Source: Rickettsiales bacterium
GTDB taxonomy: Bacteria > Pseudomonadota > Alphaproteobacteria > Rickettsiales > JAJNBL01
Assembly: GCA_021156175.1 (NCBI GenBank)
Contig: JAJNBL010000002.1
Location: forward strand, 124,001 to 188,000
Direction of reading: 5' to 3'
DNA length: 64,000 bases
The first letter of the stretch is position 1, and the number at the start of each line of letters is the position of its first letter. The notes under the pieces were generated by a model. It did not search any database and was not told where the DNA came from. It saw only the letters and a list, made by a program, of their open reading frames with translations. Shown here piece by piece: positions 13,819-24,614 of the stretch. Made by a program: the position numbers and the translations under genes.

Positions 13819-15501
13819 ATGAAAACATACTTACAGGCTCTTTCACTTGGATGCGCTTCTTTTGTTATAGCCATGTCTGCAGGCGAAGCTTATGCGCAAG
13901 TAATTGCTCCTTCGGTACAACCGGGACAAATTCAAAAACGTTTCCAGAAGCCCTCTCCTTTAAAGGTTGCCCCGGAACTTCCGATGCCAGTGCAAGGTGA
14001 AACTGCACCATCGAAAGAAATGCAAAAAGTGCGCTTCACCTTAAAAGGCGTGACGATTAAAGGTGCAAAAACCATCAGCGATGCAGAACTCGCCTCTTTC
14101 TATAAAGACCGTATCGGCAAAGAAACAAGCCTTGGTGATTTGCAAGGCGTTGCTTCTGCGATTACTGCACATTACCGCAATGAAGGTTACATCCTCTCTC
14201 GCGCTTATATCCCTGCACAGCGCATTGAAAATGGCGTTGTACGGATTGAAATCATGGAAGGTCGCATTGGAAAAGTAACCGTAGAAGGTATTCCTAACGA
14301 CAGAAGAAGCCTGATTCAAGATTACGCCGAAAAAATGAAGCGCGCTCCCTTAAGCGCACGCGATTTAGAGCGTTACCTCCTCTTGATCGATGATCTTCCT
14401 GGCATCACTGCACGTGGTATCTTGAAACCTTCTGCAAGCGAGCGCGGAGCAGCGGACCTCGTGGTGACCATCGAAGAAGACAAATTTGAAGGCGCTATCG
14501 GTATTGATAACCGCGGCACGAAATATGTTGGTCCATTCCAAACTACTGCAATGGCCGCATTTAATTCGGTACTTGGTTTGCATGAACGTACAACCGTTCG
14601 CAGTGTTATCAGCAGCCCAACCGAAGAGCTGCAATACTTCGATATTACCCATGAAGAAACTGTCGGCACGGAAGGAACACGCGTGATCGGTACGTTTGCT
14701 TATACTCACACCAAACCAGGCTTTATCTTAAAGCCTCTGGAAGTCGAAGCAGAAAATATTTCTGCAGGATTAGAAGTAAGCCATCCGTTCATCCGTTCGC
14801 GTAACCAAAACCTTTTTGGGGTAGTAGGCTATACCTATAGCGATGCGGAAGTACGTTTGCTGAGCACAGAGTTCACCGAAGATCGCCTGCATGTGATCAA
14901 TCTTGGAACAAGCTATGATGTCAAAGACCGCCTCGATGGAGTAAGCCGCATTGAAGGACGCGTGCATCAAGGCCTTACAGACGAAGGTCAAGGGCTCCGT
15001 CGCTCGCGCTTTAACGGGGAGTCTGATTTCACCAAATTCACTGCTGAAGCATTACGCCAGCAGCCAATCTGGAGAAATATTGGCGTGTTAACCGGCGTTC
15101 GCGGTCAATATTCACTCGACCCGCTTTTGGCTTCCCAGGAATTTGACTTAGGCGGTGAAGAATATGCTCGCGCTTACGATCCTTCTGAAGTCACGGGTGA
15201 TCACGGTCTTGCATTGAAAATCGAGTTAAACTACGGCAATTACGTGGGTCATAAATACTTCCAGTCTTACCAACTCTATACGTATTACGACTTAGGCGCG
15301 GTATGGAATGAAGATCCTTTAGCTGGTGAACCAGACAAGCAAAGCCTTGCTTCTACAGGTCTCGGGATTCGCTCTAACGTAACAGATGCCGTATCAGGTT
15401 ATGTGGAACTCGCATTCCCATTGACCCATAAAGTCGGCACCCAAGGGGCAGATGATGGACATGATCCTCGCCTGTTCGTTGGACTTACAACGCGGTTTTA
15501 A
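13819..15501 (+). CDS. Two-partner secretion outer-membrane translocator (TpsB, ShlB/FhaC family)
   Basis: A 560-residue outer-membrane protein with a signal peptide ending near AYAQ. The start at 13819 follows CGGAGG by nine bases; the frame extends to 13780 without a site. A POTRA domain spans about residues 60-140 (FTLKGVTIKGAKTISDAEL, YRNEGYILSRAYIPAQRI, VRIEIMEGRIGKV), a second, less conserved one follows, and the rest is a 16-strand-type beta-barrel with alternating aromatic residues. It ends in Phe (GLTTRF), as expected for BAM-dependent insertion. It lies 95 bp before the TpsA gene and should export it. A pre-POTRA plug helix is possible in residues 28-60. Confidence 0.9.
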   Translation: MKTYLQALSLGCASFVIAMSAGEAYAQVIAPSVQPGQIQKRFQKPSPLKVAPELPMPVQGETAPSKEMQKVRFTLKGVTIKGAKTISDAELASFYKDRIGKETSLGDLQGVASAITAHYRNEGYILSRAYIPAQRIENGVVRIEIMEGRIGKVTVEGIPNDRRSLIQDYAEKMKRAPLSARDLERYLLLIDDLPGITARGILKPSASERGAADLVVTIEEDKFEGAIGIDNRGTKYVGPFQTTAMAAFNSVLGLHERTTVRSVISSPTEELQYFDITHEETVGTEGTRVIGTFAYTHTKPGFILKPLEVEAENISAGLEVSHPFIRSRNQNLFGVVGYTYSDAEVRLLSTEFTEDRLHVINLGTSYDVKDRLDGVSRIEGRVHQGLTDEGQGLRRSRFNGESDFTKFTAEALRQQPIWRNIGVLTGVRGQYSLDPLLASQEFDLGGEEYARAYDPSEVTGDHGLALKIELNYGNYVGHKYFQSYQLYTYYDLGAVWNEDPLAGEPDKQSLASTGLGIRSNVTDAVSGYVELAFPLTHKVGTQGADDGHDPRLFVGLTTRF

Positions 15502-15595
15502 TGTGTGATTTTTGTTAATCTTTTGCTTTTGGATTAATTAAGTTTTGGCCGAAAGCATGACTTTCGTTCGTTAGGTTTATAAAAGGTGAAAATAT

Positions 15596-17899
15596 ATGGT
15601 TACCACTTTTGCTACTTCTCGCTCTTCTGGATCGCGTAAAACATTTTACGCAACCATCAGCGCTTTTTGCGTCTGTACAACCTTCCTTACCACTCCGGTA
15701 GCATTCGCAAACCCAACAGGTGGCGTGATTGCTTTCGGTGGCGGAAGCATTAACACCTCTGGAAACAAGGTAACCATCACCCAAACCGGCACTGATAAAG
15801 GTATCATCAACTGGAGTACCTTTAACATTGACACTGGCCAGACAACGGAATTTAAGCAAAAGAATAGCAACTCCATCTCCCTTAACCGTATCGGCGATAC
15901 CAATCCTTCCAGCATTCAAGGTACCTTGAAAGCAAACGGAAAGGTGATCCTAATCAATCCAAATGGTATCGCATTTGGCTCTAACGCCTCTGTGGATGTA
16001 CAGGGATTGATTGCGACCACGGCTGGTATCAGCGATGACGATTTCAAAAACAGCACCGGTAGCTACAACTTCAATATAGCAAGTCCTAACTCAAGTGCTG
16101 CCGTTACCAACCAAAGCAATAACATTTCGATCAAAAACAACGGCCTGCTTGCTTTCGTAGCACCTTCTGTTGAAAACTCCGGTACCATTACCGCAAACAC
16201 CGGAAAAGTGTCTCTTGCTGGTGGCGATACCTTTACGATCGACTTAAACGGCGATGGATTAGTCCAACTTGCTGTAGGAAGCTCGAACACGGATACGAAC
16301 GTAACCAACACCGGCAATATTTATGCATCGGGCGGCACTGTCCAGATTTCTACCCAAACCGCAAGCAATGTTGTCGACAACCTCATCAACATGGACGGTG
16401 TTGTTGAAGCGAAAACCGTAAAAGTTAGCGGCGATGTTATCGTATTATCCGGCGAGACGGATGCAGCCAATGGTGTGGATGGTGGCGCAGTCACCATTAC
16501 GGGAACAGACATTACCGTTAAAAGCACGGGTTCTGTGAAAGCCGATGCAGCACGAGATGGCGGCACTGTTACGATTAATGGAACACACGATGTTCTCATT
16601 GAATCTGGAGCAGAAGTCAGCACGGCAGCAGTCCGTGATGGTGGTTCTATTAGCATCACCGCAGGTGACGATTTATTCATTGAAGATGATGCGAAAGTTA
16701 CTTCAGCAGGCCTAAGAGACGGTGGAAGCATTGCACTTAGCGCAACTGATGACCTCCTTATTGGAGAAGACGCACAAGTACTTGCGAGTGGCGTGCAAGA
16801 TGGTGGTACGATTGATATCACAGCAGGCGATGAATTGACCGTCAAAACCGGTGCTAAAATCGATACAGCAGGCTTACGTGACGGCGGTTCAATCACTCTA
16901 GATGGCAGCGATGTTGTCATCGAAGGTAGCGTTCAAATCATTTCAACAGGCCTAAGAGATGGTGGAAATATTGCTATCGACGGCGATAACATCTTAATCA
17001 AAGATTTTGCTACTATTGATGGTTCTGGCCTCCACGCAAACGGAGCAATCAATGTTGGAAATCCAGAAGCAAATGTTACGATTGAAAAAGATGTCGTTAT
17101 CCGAGGTAACCTCACTGTAACTCCATCGAATAACAGCTCTCCTTACCAAGGAAATGGTGGCATTGATCAAGGTATTGATGATGACACGACACCAGGCGGT
17201 GGCGATGATACGACTCCAGGCGGCGGTGATGATACGACTCCAGGCGGCGGTGATGATACGACTCCAGGCGGCGGTGATGATACGACTCCAGGCGGTGGCG
17301 ATGATACAACACCAGGCGGTGGCGATGATACAACACCAGGCGGTGGCGATGATACAACACCAGGCGGTGGCGATGATACGACTCCAGGCGGTGGCGATGA
17401 TACGACTCCAGGCGGTGGCGATGATACGACTCCAGGCGGTGGCGATGATACGACTCCAGGCGGTGGCAACGACGGCAATGGCGGGTCTGGTAACCCGACC
17501 CCAGGTAACGGGGGCAATGGCTCTCCAAATAGCAACGGCAACCCAAATCCTGGCTCAAATGGCAACGGCGGTAATGGAAATGGCGGAAGCTCCTCCAATG
17601 GCGGCGGATCTGGCGGTGGAAACGCCTTCAGTGGTGATTTCGATTTCGGCTTCTTAGAGCAAGATGAAGACTCTACGGATGAGCAGCTTCTGACGGCAGC
17701 AGATCAAGCATTACCACAAAACCCAATGGCAGAGCCGTATAACCTGACGGAAAATGAGCAAGAGTTAAGCTTGCTTCCTTCTGGTAATGAAGGCAACGGC
17801 GAAGGTTCTGAGCCTAACTTGGAACCAGCAGCTGGTGGGAATCCTAACGGTGGAAACCCTGTCCAATTTGGCAATGGTTACTTAGGGTACAACCAGTAA
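15596..17899 (+). CDS. Two-partner secretion exoprotein (TpsA) with TPS domain, beta-helix repeats and DDTTPGGG array
   Basis: A 767-residue secreted protein. After a signal peptide ending near AFA-NP (about residue 40) comes the TPS/haemagglutinin activity domain (SLNRIGDTNPSSIQG, INPNGIAFG). Residues about 280-490 hold seven or so repeats of about 30 residues with the pattern (L/V)RDGGxIxIxxxD, predicted to be right-handed beta-helix coils. Residues 529-624 are twelve copies of DDTTPGGG, followed by a Gly/Asn-rich and then acidic C-terminus. A PAAG sequence at 744-747 fits the LapG cleavage consensus, and a LapG-type protease gene lies 75 bp away. There is no cysteine outside the signal peptide, unlike the cysteine hook of CdrA. 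AAAAGGTGAAA precedes the ATG. Likely a surface adhesin. Confidence 0.88.
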   Translation: MVTTFATSRSSGSRKTFYATISAFCVCTTFLTTPVAFANPTGGVIAFGGGSINTSGNKVTITQTGTDKGIINWSTFNIDTGQTTEFKQKNSNSISLNRIGDTNPSSIQGTLKANGKVILINPNGIAFGSNASVDVQGLIATTAGISDDDFKNSTGSYNFNIASPNSSAAVTNQSNNISIKNNGLLAFVAPSVENSGTITANTGKVSLAGGDTFTIDLNGDGLVQLAVGSSNTDTNVTNTGNIYASGGTVQISTQTASNVVDNLINMDGVVEAKTVKVSGDVIVLSGETDAANGVDGGAVTITGTDITVKSTGSVKADAARDGGTVTINGTHDVLIESGAEVSTAAVRDGGSISITAGDDLFIEDDAKVTSAGLRDGGSIALSATDDLLIGEDAQVLASGVQDGGTIDITAGDELTVKTGAKIDTAGLRDGGSITLDGSDVVIEGSVQIISTGLRDGGNIAIDGDNILIKDFATIDGSGLHANGAINVGNPEANVTIEKDVVIRGNLTVTPSNNSSPYQGNGGIDQGIDDDTTPGGGDDTTPGGGDDTTPGGGDDTTPGGGDDTTPGGGDDTTPGGGDDTTPGGGDDTTPGGGDDTTPGGGDDTTPGGGDDTTPGGGDDTTPGGGNDGNGGSGNPTPGNGGNGSPNSNGNPNPGSNGNGGNGNGGSSSNGGGSGGGNAFSGDFDFGFLEQDEDSTDEQLLTAADQALPQNPMAEPYNLTENEQELSLLPSGNEGNGEGSEPNLEPAAGGNPNGGNPVQFGNGYLGYNQ
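17180..17467 (+). repeat. Twelve tandem 24-bp coding repeats in tpsA
   Basis: The tract is exactly 288 bp, twelve 24-bp units each encoding DDTTPGGG. Units differ only at silent sites: units 2-4 use GGCGGCGGT, three consecutive units use ACAACACCA, and the last units are identical. That blockwise pattern points to expansion by slippage or unequal exchange, always in frame. Confidence 0.95.
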
Positions 17900-17922
17900 C
17901 ACACTGCATTACTAAAATAAAA

Positions 17923-17953
17923 AAGAGGGGCTATTTAGCCCCTCTTTTTTTGT
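17923..17953. terminator. Intrinsic terminator between tpsA and the lapG-like gene
   Basis: A hairpin with perfect GAGGGGCT / AGCCCCTC stem and ATTT loop, flanked by an A run on the left and a T run on the right. It should end transcription from both convergent genes. Confidence 0.92.
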
Positions 17954-17974
17954 AACGACATAACAGAAACGCTC

Positions 17975-18607
17975 TTAAGAGTAATAACGCCACCATCCTT
18001 TTGTATTAATGGCATAAATGGGGCGATAACGCCCGAGCGTATGGTATACCACGACATCGGGGGTTTGGTTATCCAAGAGATAGGTCTTGCCGTCGATATC
18101 CACACTCAGTGCAGCATGAATCACTCCTTTTCGGCGGTCATTCATAATCACCAGTCGCATATCCTCTTCACGCACACCTAAAGCAAGCAGAGAGAAATAT
18201 TTGGTGATCGCATAATCTTCACAATCCCCCTGGTGTGAGAGAAATTCGCGCGGCGTTGCCCAATAATCGCTTTTACCCCAGACATCATTATCATCCGCAT
18301 AGGAAACCCGATTAACATAGCTATTGACCGCTTCGGCCTTCTCAAGCGTAGAGAGGTCCTTTTCATCAATTCTTTCTAGAAACCCCCTCCATTCATTAAG
18401 CGCATCACAGGTCGCAGAACGTTCGGTACAGGACTGCCGGCTTTGTTCACTATAGCGGCGGAGCATCGCATTCCATTTCGTAAACTGGCTAATATCCTCG
18501 GAAACCCGTTTAGCTTCCAAATAGCGGGGAGATTTGGCATAGGCAGCGGGTACGGCACATACCGCCCAGAACAGCATCACACACCCTGTAATATACCAAT
18601 ATCGCAT
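17975..18607 (-). CDS. lapG: LapG-type periplasmic transglutaminase-like cysteine protease
   Basis: A 210-residue exported protein (signal peptide ending near AYA-K, residue 24) of the bacterial transglutaminase-like cysteine proteinase family. The triad is visible: Cys129 in GDCEDYA, His164 in VIHAALSV and Asp179 in LLDNQ. Asp128 and Glu130 flank the Cys as in the calcium-binding DCE motif of LapG. LapG cleaves large adhesins at a di-alanine site ([TAP]AA[GV]) and frees them from the cell when the c-di-GMP receptor LapD lets it go. The convergent neighbour is the TpsA exoprotein, which has a PAAG site, so that is the likely substrate. No lapD gene is in the window. Confidence 0.85.
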   Translation of the reverse strand: MRYWYITGCVMLFWAVCAVPAAYAKSPRYLEAKRVSEDISQFTKWNAMLRRYSEQSRQSCTERSATCDALNEWRGFLERIDEKDLSTLEKAEAVNSYVNRVSYADDNDVWGKSDYWATPREFLSHQGDCEDYAITKYFSLLALGVREEDMRLVIMNDRRKGVIHAALSVDIDGKTYLLDNQTPDVVVYHTLGRYRPIYAINTKGWWRYYS

Positions 18608-23873: not shown

Positions 23874-24614
23874 ATGGCTATTATTAATTTAGGTGGTGGA
23901 ATCATTAGTGCCGGCGGCTCAATAAATATCAGCAGCGGTGGCGATATTGACATGACAGGGAATCCTGATGCCCTGAACCTTTCAGGCTCCGACAACGCCA
24001 ACCTCATTCGTGCCGGGGAAAACAACGATACCGTCCGCAGTAACGGAGGTAATGATTTTGTTTATGGGGCAGGCGGTAATGACAGTCTTTATGGTGGATC
24101 AGGCAATGATTTCCTCCAAGGCAACAGCGGAAACGACCTGATTTTTGGTGAGGACGGAAACGATACCTTACGTGGAGGCATCAACGAAGATAACCTCAGC
24201 GGTGGCCAAGGTGACGATTTTGTTGCAGGCGATCGGGGACTCGATGTGGTACAGGGCGATCAAGGCAACGATACCCTCCGTGGTGGTCAAAATAATGATA
24301 CCCTTTCTGGCGGTGACGGAAATGATGTTATTTACGGTGATAAAGGTAATGATATTTTGTCCGGCGGAGCGGGTGCAGATACGTTTGTGTTTGCCGCCAC
24401 AACAGGGGCAGATACGATTATCGATTACCAGGTCGGCACTGATCGGGTTGTTGTAACCGCACCACAACTCGCAGAATTGCATAGCTCCAGTTTTGGGTCT
24501 GCGACCAATGGTTCTGCTATCGCAACCTTTAGCGATGGTACGAGCATCACCTTTACAGGCCACACCGCCGCTTCTTTAGGCGCGGTAGGGATTGATGCTA
24601 TCTTTTCTAGCTAA
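23874..24614 (+). CDS. RTX calcium-binding repeat protein
   Basis: A 246-residue acidic, glycine-rich protein with no signal peptide. After an unusual GG-rich start (INLGGGIISAGGSINIS), residues about 35-175 carry nonapeptide repeats of the GGxGxDxLx type (GGNDSLYGGSGNDFLQGNSGND). They end in GGAGADTFVF and a C-terminal module (TIIDYQVGTDRVVV, TSITFTGHTAASLG) typical of type I secreted RTX proteins. The repeats bind calcium and fold outside the cell. The ATG at 23874 follows GGGAG. It has its own promoter and a strong downstream hairpin. No type I secretion genes are nearby, so its exporter is elsewhere. Confidence 0.85.
   Translation: MAIINLGGGIISAGGSINISSGGDIDMTGNPDALNLSGSDNANLIRAGENNDTVRSNGGNDFVYGAGGNDSLYGGSGNDFLQGNSGNDLIFGEDGNDTLRGGINEDNLSGGQGDDFVAGDRGLDVVQGDQGNDTLRGGQNNDTLSGGDGNDVIYGDKGNDILSGGAGADTFVFAATTGADTIIDYQVGTDRVVVTAPQLAELHSSSFGSATNGSAIATFSDGTSITFTGHTAASLGAVGIDAIFSS

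Follow-up and report, generated by a model that had tools for sequence, protein, structure and literature searches.

A TPS exoprotein with a PAAG motif and no cysteine hook beside a LapG-type protease gene in a Rickettsiales bacterium: a probable reduced CdrA-LapG module

Proteases of the LapG family cut at [TAP]AA[GV] and depend on calcium. In the LapA-LapG-LapD system of Pseudomonas fluorescens, the substrate of the protease is a T1SS adhesin with an N-terminal retention module, and the receptor is a GGDEF-EAL protein. In the HMW1A-HMW1B pair of Haemophilus influenzae, the exoprotein is tethered in TpsB by a C-terminal cysteine loop, and no LapG is known to be involved. The CdrA-CdrB-LapG-LapD system of Pseudomonas aeruginosa has a type Vb adhesin that is cut by LapG near its C-terminus; CdrA that is cut short before its C-terminal cysteines is always released (PMC11898600). 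In the DvhA-DvhG-DvhD system of Desulfovibrio vulgaris, DvhA is a T1SS adhesin with an N-terminal retention domain, and DvhD binds c-di-GMP without hydrolysing it (Font et al. 2026, PMC13090378).

We analysed a window of 64,000 nucleotides from a Rickettsiales bacterium (contig JAJNBL010000002.1, positions 124,001 to 188,000) and compared its genome with others of the order. The initial annotation had likened the locus at 13819-18607 to CdrA-LapG, and the analogy holds: there is a TPS exoprotein with its transporter, a LapG-family protease, and a [TAP]AAG motif near the exoprotein C-terminus. Unlike the CdrA system, the locus has neither a C-terminal cysteine pair nor LapD, and the protease gene adjoins tpsA. 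The protease family, fold and cleavage motif are shared with the LapA system, whereas the T1SS adhesin, the N-terminal retention module and the GGDEF-EAL receptor are not. With Dvh, the locus shares the LapG-like protease, and relatives from the order add a receptor with PAS and dead HD-GYP domains; however, the candidate substrate here is a TPS protein and the genome lacks the receptor. The HMW1A tether is comparable with the hook of the relatives, but not with the window TpsA, which has no cysteine loop.

The first gene (13819-15501, forward strand; start codon ATG at 13819 with GGAGG upstream) encodes an outer-membrane transporter of the FhaC/CdrB type with POTRA_2 and ShlB domains. It is followed on the same strand by tpsA (15596-17899), encoding an exoprotein of 767 amino acids with a signal peptide (15596-15709, cleaved after AFA38 by inspection) and a TPS secretion domain at residues 52-298 (15749-16489, PF05860, E 5e-34). 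The only cysteines of TpsA, C25 and C27, are inside the signal peptide, and the mature protein is cysteine-free. Further downstream, a tract of 12 tandem 24-bp units (17180-17467, 96% matches in TRF) encodes a DDTTPGGG linker. PAAG (residues 744-747, 17825-17836) is set within NLEPAAGG, matching the L[SEAT]PAAGG of the relatives, and is followed by 20 residues. A terminator-like hairpin (17919-17950) separates tpsA from the protease gene on the reverse strand (17975-18607), which has a signal peptide by inspection. Since the two genes converge on this common terminator, the protease gene is outside the tpsBA operon. All elements named in the initial annotation, that is, the neighbouring TpsB, TpsA and LapG genes, the triad, the DCE motif and PAAG, were found by Pfam, alignment and direct reading. 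The same genome encodes a second TpsA-TpsB pair (L065:2096-9043), which has no PAAG, no cysteine pair and a transporter of the non-hook clade.

The product of 17975-18607 is a LapG-family protease of the Peptidase C93/BTLCP type (E 8e-19). The catalytic triad Cys129, His164, Asp179 is invariant in alignments with 20 and with 43 relatives, and the calcium-site motif DCE is conserved, occurring here as GDCED. Profile comparison with solved LapG structures yielded E-values of 7e-35 (4u65) and 5e-32 (4fgo). The AlphaFold model (pLDDT 91) is closest to LapG 4fgq (Z 18.8, 150 aligned residues, rmsd 2.5); the next structure other than LapG has Z 10.4. Two cysteines outside the active site, C60 and C68, are nearly invariant in the alphaproteobacterial LapG-like proteases and are kept here; perhaps they form a disulfide. 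By analogy with CdrA and LapA, we infer that the protease cleaves TpsA in the periplasm between the alanines of PAAG and that TpsA is then released.

The homology of the TpsA tail rests on short motifs, and tests of these motifs against shuffled sequences were used in place of a profile of the whole C-terminus, which is noisy (the window tail ranked tenth, under nine of 1000 shuffles). Of the shuffled sequences, 1% are expected to contain [TAP]AAG anywhere in the last 80 residues, and 0.011% to contain L.PAAGG. The pattern L.PAAGG followed by GN.[FY]L was seen in 0 of 200,000 shuffles, although it had been picked after viewing the tails of the relatives. The sequence QFGNGYLGYNQ (17864-17896) aligns to CGNxFLxxGx of the relatives, with F758 at the position of the first cysteine and the protein ending before the second. 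Thus the window tail reads NLEPAAGG...FGNGYL where the relatives have NLEPAAGG...CGNxFL. The profile of the module formed by PAAG and the cysteine pair does not match the window tail at E 0.05. A frameshift or early stop hiding the hook was considered and rejected, as no cysteine-bearing remnant was recognised in any frame 3' of the stop codon, and the terminator follows.

The relatives were taken from a set of 131 genomes of the order, of which 46 yielded a match for TpsA and 34 one for C93; a LapG-like C93 protein is encoded in 31. Conservation of PAAG, which the initial annotation had proposed to check, was observed: among complete TpsAs, the last 70 residues contain [TAP]AAG in 15 of 28 from genomes with the protease and in 0 of 18 from the others (P 7e-5; the P-values assume that genomes are independent, an assumption that related genomes violate). 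In 14 of these 15 TpsAs the last 35 residues include two cysteines; the window TpsA is the exception. Hook-type TpsAs of the order end in L-x-PAAGG and then the C-terminal cysteine pair, as in LGGLEPAAGGENPQALASLEPAAGGEANCGNSFLGSGFNNKFDIASCSIKEQQ (G023) and LAGLTPAAGGNSGLPTGPDECLNSYLQSGHSDTFDSSKCGAE (G020). By analogy with CdrA, the pair is presumably a disulfide hook. At E below 1e-5 the module profile matches 18 of the 131 genomes, and 17 of these encode the protease (P 4e-12). The profile had been built with sequences from twelve of the 18; among the six outside the training set, five have the protease (P 3e-4). Linkage of lapG with tpsBA recurs in relatives, where the initial annotation had named its absence as a ground for refutation: the genes lie no more than about 10 kb apart in at least seven further genomes from the order; in many genomes the protease gene is unlinked to TPS genes. 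In several hook-type TpsAs (L071, L138, L168), L-x-P-[AS]-A-G-G occurs two or three times ahead of the cysteine pair, possibly as duplicated cleavage sites.

The transporters follow the same division. In a tree of TpsB proteins, one change is enough to separate the 13 transporters of the hook type from the 11 others, and none of 500 shuffles gave so low a value. The split has SH-aLRT support of 83. The window TpsB is among the hook type, beside that of G110 (91), and the genome's other TpsB falls with the non-hook transporters. Because the window TpsB belongs to the hook clade and the TpsA tail keeps the remnant of the motif, the hook seems to have been lost in this lineage. The earlier statement that TpsA has no C-terminal cysteine pair is therefore true, but it is sharpened to an apparent loss, as the 14 other PAAG-ended TpsAs keep the pair. 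A strain-specific defect is possible, the family being covered by one genome. Loss of disulfide formation was rejected as the cause: DsbB is present in the genome, so that loss of DsbB does not explain the missing hook.

The control arm differs in a similar way. The usual neighbour of the protease in the order is a protein of about 710 residues in which, as read from the sequence, a periplasmic domain between two membrane segments is followed by PAS and HD-GYP-like domains. In place of the HD pair it has MN or LN, it lacks the double histidine, and GYP is replaced by GPL or similar; as all these signatures are degenerate, the protein is not expected to have enzymatic activity. Among solved structures it best matches 9rc0 (E 1e-64) and 9rbz, annotated as HD domain/sensory box protein, which we take to be DvhD, as they fit the PAS/HD-GYP and HD-GYP structures reported for DvhD. 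This DvhD-like receptor occurs complete or almost complete in 26 genomes of the order, 25 of which have the protease (P 4e-20), and is thus present in 25 of the 31 protease genomes.

No DvhD-like receptor was found in the window's genome by the profile search, and no HD_5 domain is present there. The LapD_MoxY_N domain (PF16448) had no match, but the control genomes were equally silent, and for this reason the search relied on GGDEF, EAL, HD_5 and profile A1. The genome encodes four GGDEF proteins, one of which is also its one clear EAL protein, and there is one sub-threshold EAL match; a membrane segment is predicted in none of these GGDEF/EAL proteins. Hence the proposed search for lapD produced no candidate, and the suggestion of a Lap-type c-di-GMP switch is not borne out for this genome, in which neither a LapD-like nor a DvhD-like receptor was found.

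The protease occurs without the receptor in five further genomes (G018, G020, G030, G038, G078), two of which are incomplete. The hook module is retained in G018, G020 and G078, and a short cysteine pair in G030; loss of the receptor alone is therefore not enough to abolish the hook. Among the genomes compared, only that of the window has a PAAG-ended TpsA and has lost both hook and receptor. A LapD substitute was sought in G018, G020, G030 and G078, but no clear membrane segment was seen in their EAL proteins, one marginal stretch in G020 being the only exception. The proteases without a DvhD-like receptor (six, including that of the window) have longer end branches (median 1.55 versus 0.37, P 2e-4), as would be expected after lifted constraint, though sparse sampling gives long branches too.

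Taken together, we consider the locus to be a reduced CdrA-LapG module, which trims or releases TpsA and has no recognised c-di-GMP receptor or gated hold; we would put the probability of this reading at about 0.6. TpsB would secrete TpsA with its N-terminus first, and the C-terminal tail would pass through the mouth of TpsB on the periplasmic side, or linger there, and be exposed to the protease, which may cut PAAG. In the relatives, the cysteine pair behind PAAG would keep TpsA in TpsB up to the moment of cleavage, with the protease under the control of the DvhD-type receptor. In the window's genome, this switch may have turned into a constitutive, or differently controlled, release step. 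As the cysteine pair and the receptor are both missing by sequence, trimming or release of TpsA probably involves no hold gated by c-di-GMP; and since CdrA without its cysteines is always released (PMC11898600), the window TpsA is not expected to be held by a hook. On the other hand, the intact PAAG and triad run counter to this reading, as they suggest that the cut, and with it some form of hold, is still under selection.

This last point leads to an alternative which we regard as unlikely but not negligible, namely that TpsA is hookless and nevertheless regulated, with a plug other than a disulfide holding it in TpsB and the protease releasing it on a signal from a receptor that we did not recognise. 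Conservation of PAAG and of the triad despite the absence of hook and receptor is consistent with it, as is the company that the protease keeps with TPS adhesins in G018, G020, G078 and G030, where there is no DvhD-like protein. However, the residues behind PAAG are too few for a folded plug of the LapA type, and CdrA without cysteines is not retained (PMC11898600). The initial annotation had suggested that the hold might lie in the Gly/Asn-rich and repeat tract. Nothing points there: the tract precedes the cut and would leave with the adhesin. A third form of the Lap switch, in which the protease would release a TPS adhesin held without a hook, under a receptor that is neither LapD nor DvhD, we consider rather improbable.

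It is doubtful, too, that the true substrate of the protease is another protein and that PAAG of TpsA is a relic. The genome does encode several RTX proteins, and the hook and receptor have already been lost. However, a LapA-like RTX adhesin as the target was rejected, as inspection of the RTX proteins read revealed no N-terminal retention module of the LapA type, and just two of them contain [TAP]AAG, at residue 66 of an 864-residue frame and at residue 1214 of a 2520-residue frame. Moreover, the module profile finds the hook module in no other protein of the genome, and the linkage of the protease with tpsA recurs in relatives. RTX proteins are encoded at L066:3301-6534 and at about 24042-24383 of the window; the one of 1077 amino acids has GGGSDDTVT repeats, resembling the low-complexity DDTTPGGG linker.

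That the genes are chance neighbours, with a coincidental PAAG and a protease unrelated to TpsA, agrees with their convergent arrangement in separate operons and with the unlinked proteases of many genomes, but it is very improbable given the co-occurrence of module and protease in 17 of 18 genomes, the absence of both tail motifs from all 200,000 shuffles, and the linkage of the genes, to within about 10 kb, in at least seven further genomes from the order and at 4 of 80 loci from public genomes.

These 80 loci, mainly alphaproteobacterial and partly overlapping the order set, were found by scanning public genome contigs with an alignment of the proteases; a scan with a single protease sequence gave no matches. 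A DvhD-like partner is present within 10 kb at 56 of them, four of which also have TpsA and TpsB. In three loci of relatives from the order (L071:702-16205, L073:7095-15758, L089:1739-6422) lapG, the gene of the DvhD-like PAS/dead-HD-GYP receptor and tpsB are side by side, with tpsA as well in L071 and L073. As judged by gene content, this arrangement is a TPS version of the Dvh switch. Alphaproteobacterial DvhDG pairs as such are not claimed as new; the system published in PMC13090378 acts on T1SS adhesins.

The main interest lies in these relatives. Firstly, their C-terminal module of PAAG and a cysteine pair predicts substrates of the protease from sequence. Secondly, they join published parts anew, as the combination of a TPS adhesin, a LapG protease and a DvhD-type receptor was not found in the literature searched. 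Control of type Vb adhesins by LapG, known from P. aeruginosa CdrA, is thereby extended to an alphaproteobacterial order. Finally, the window's genome, having lost both hook and receptor, is a natural test of what each contributes. Among the public loci (L178-L257), a few, for example L220, L235 and L255, have a second, more divergent pair nearby.
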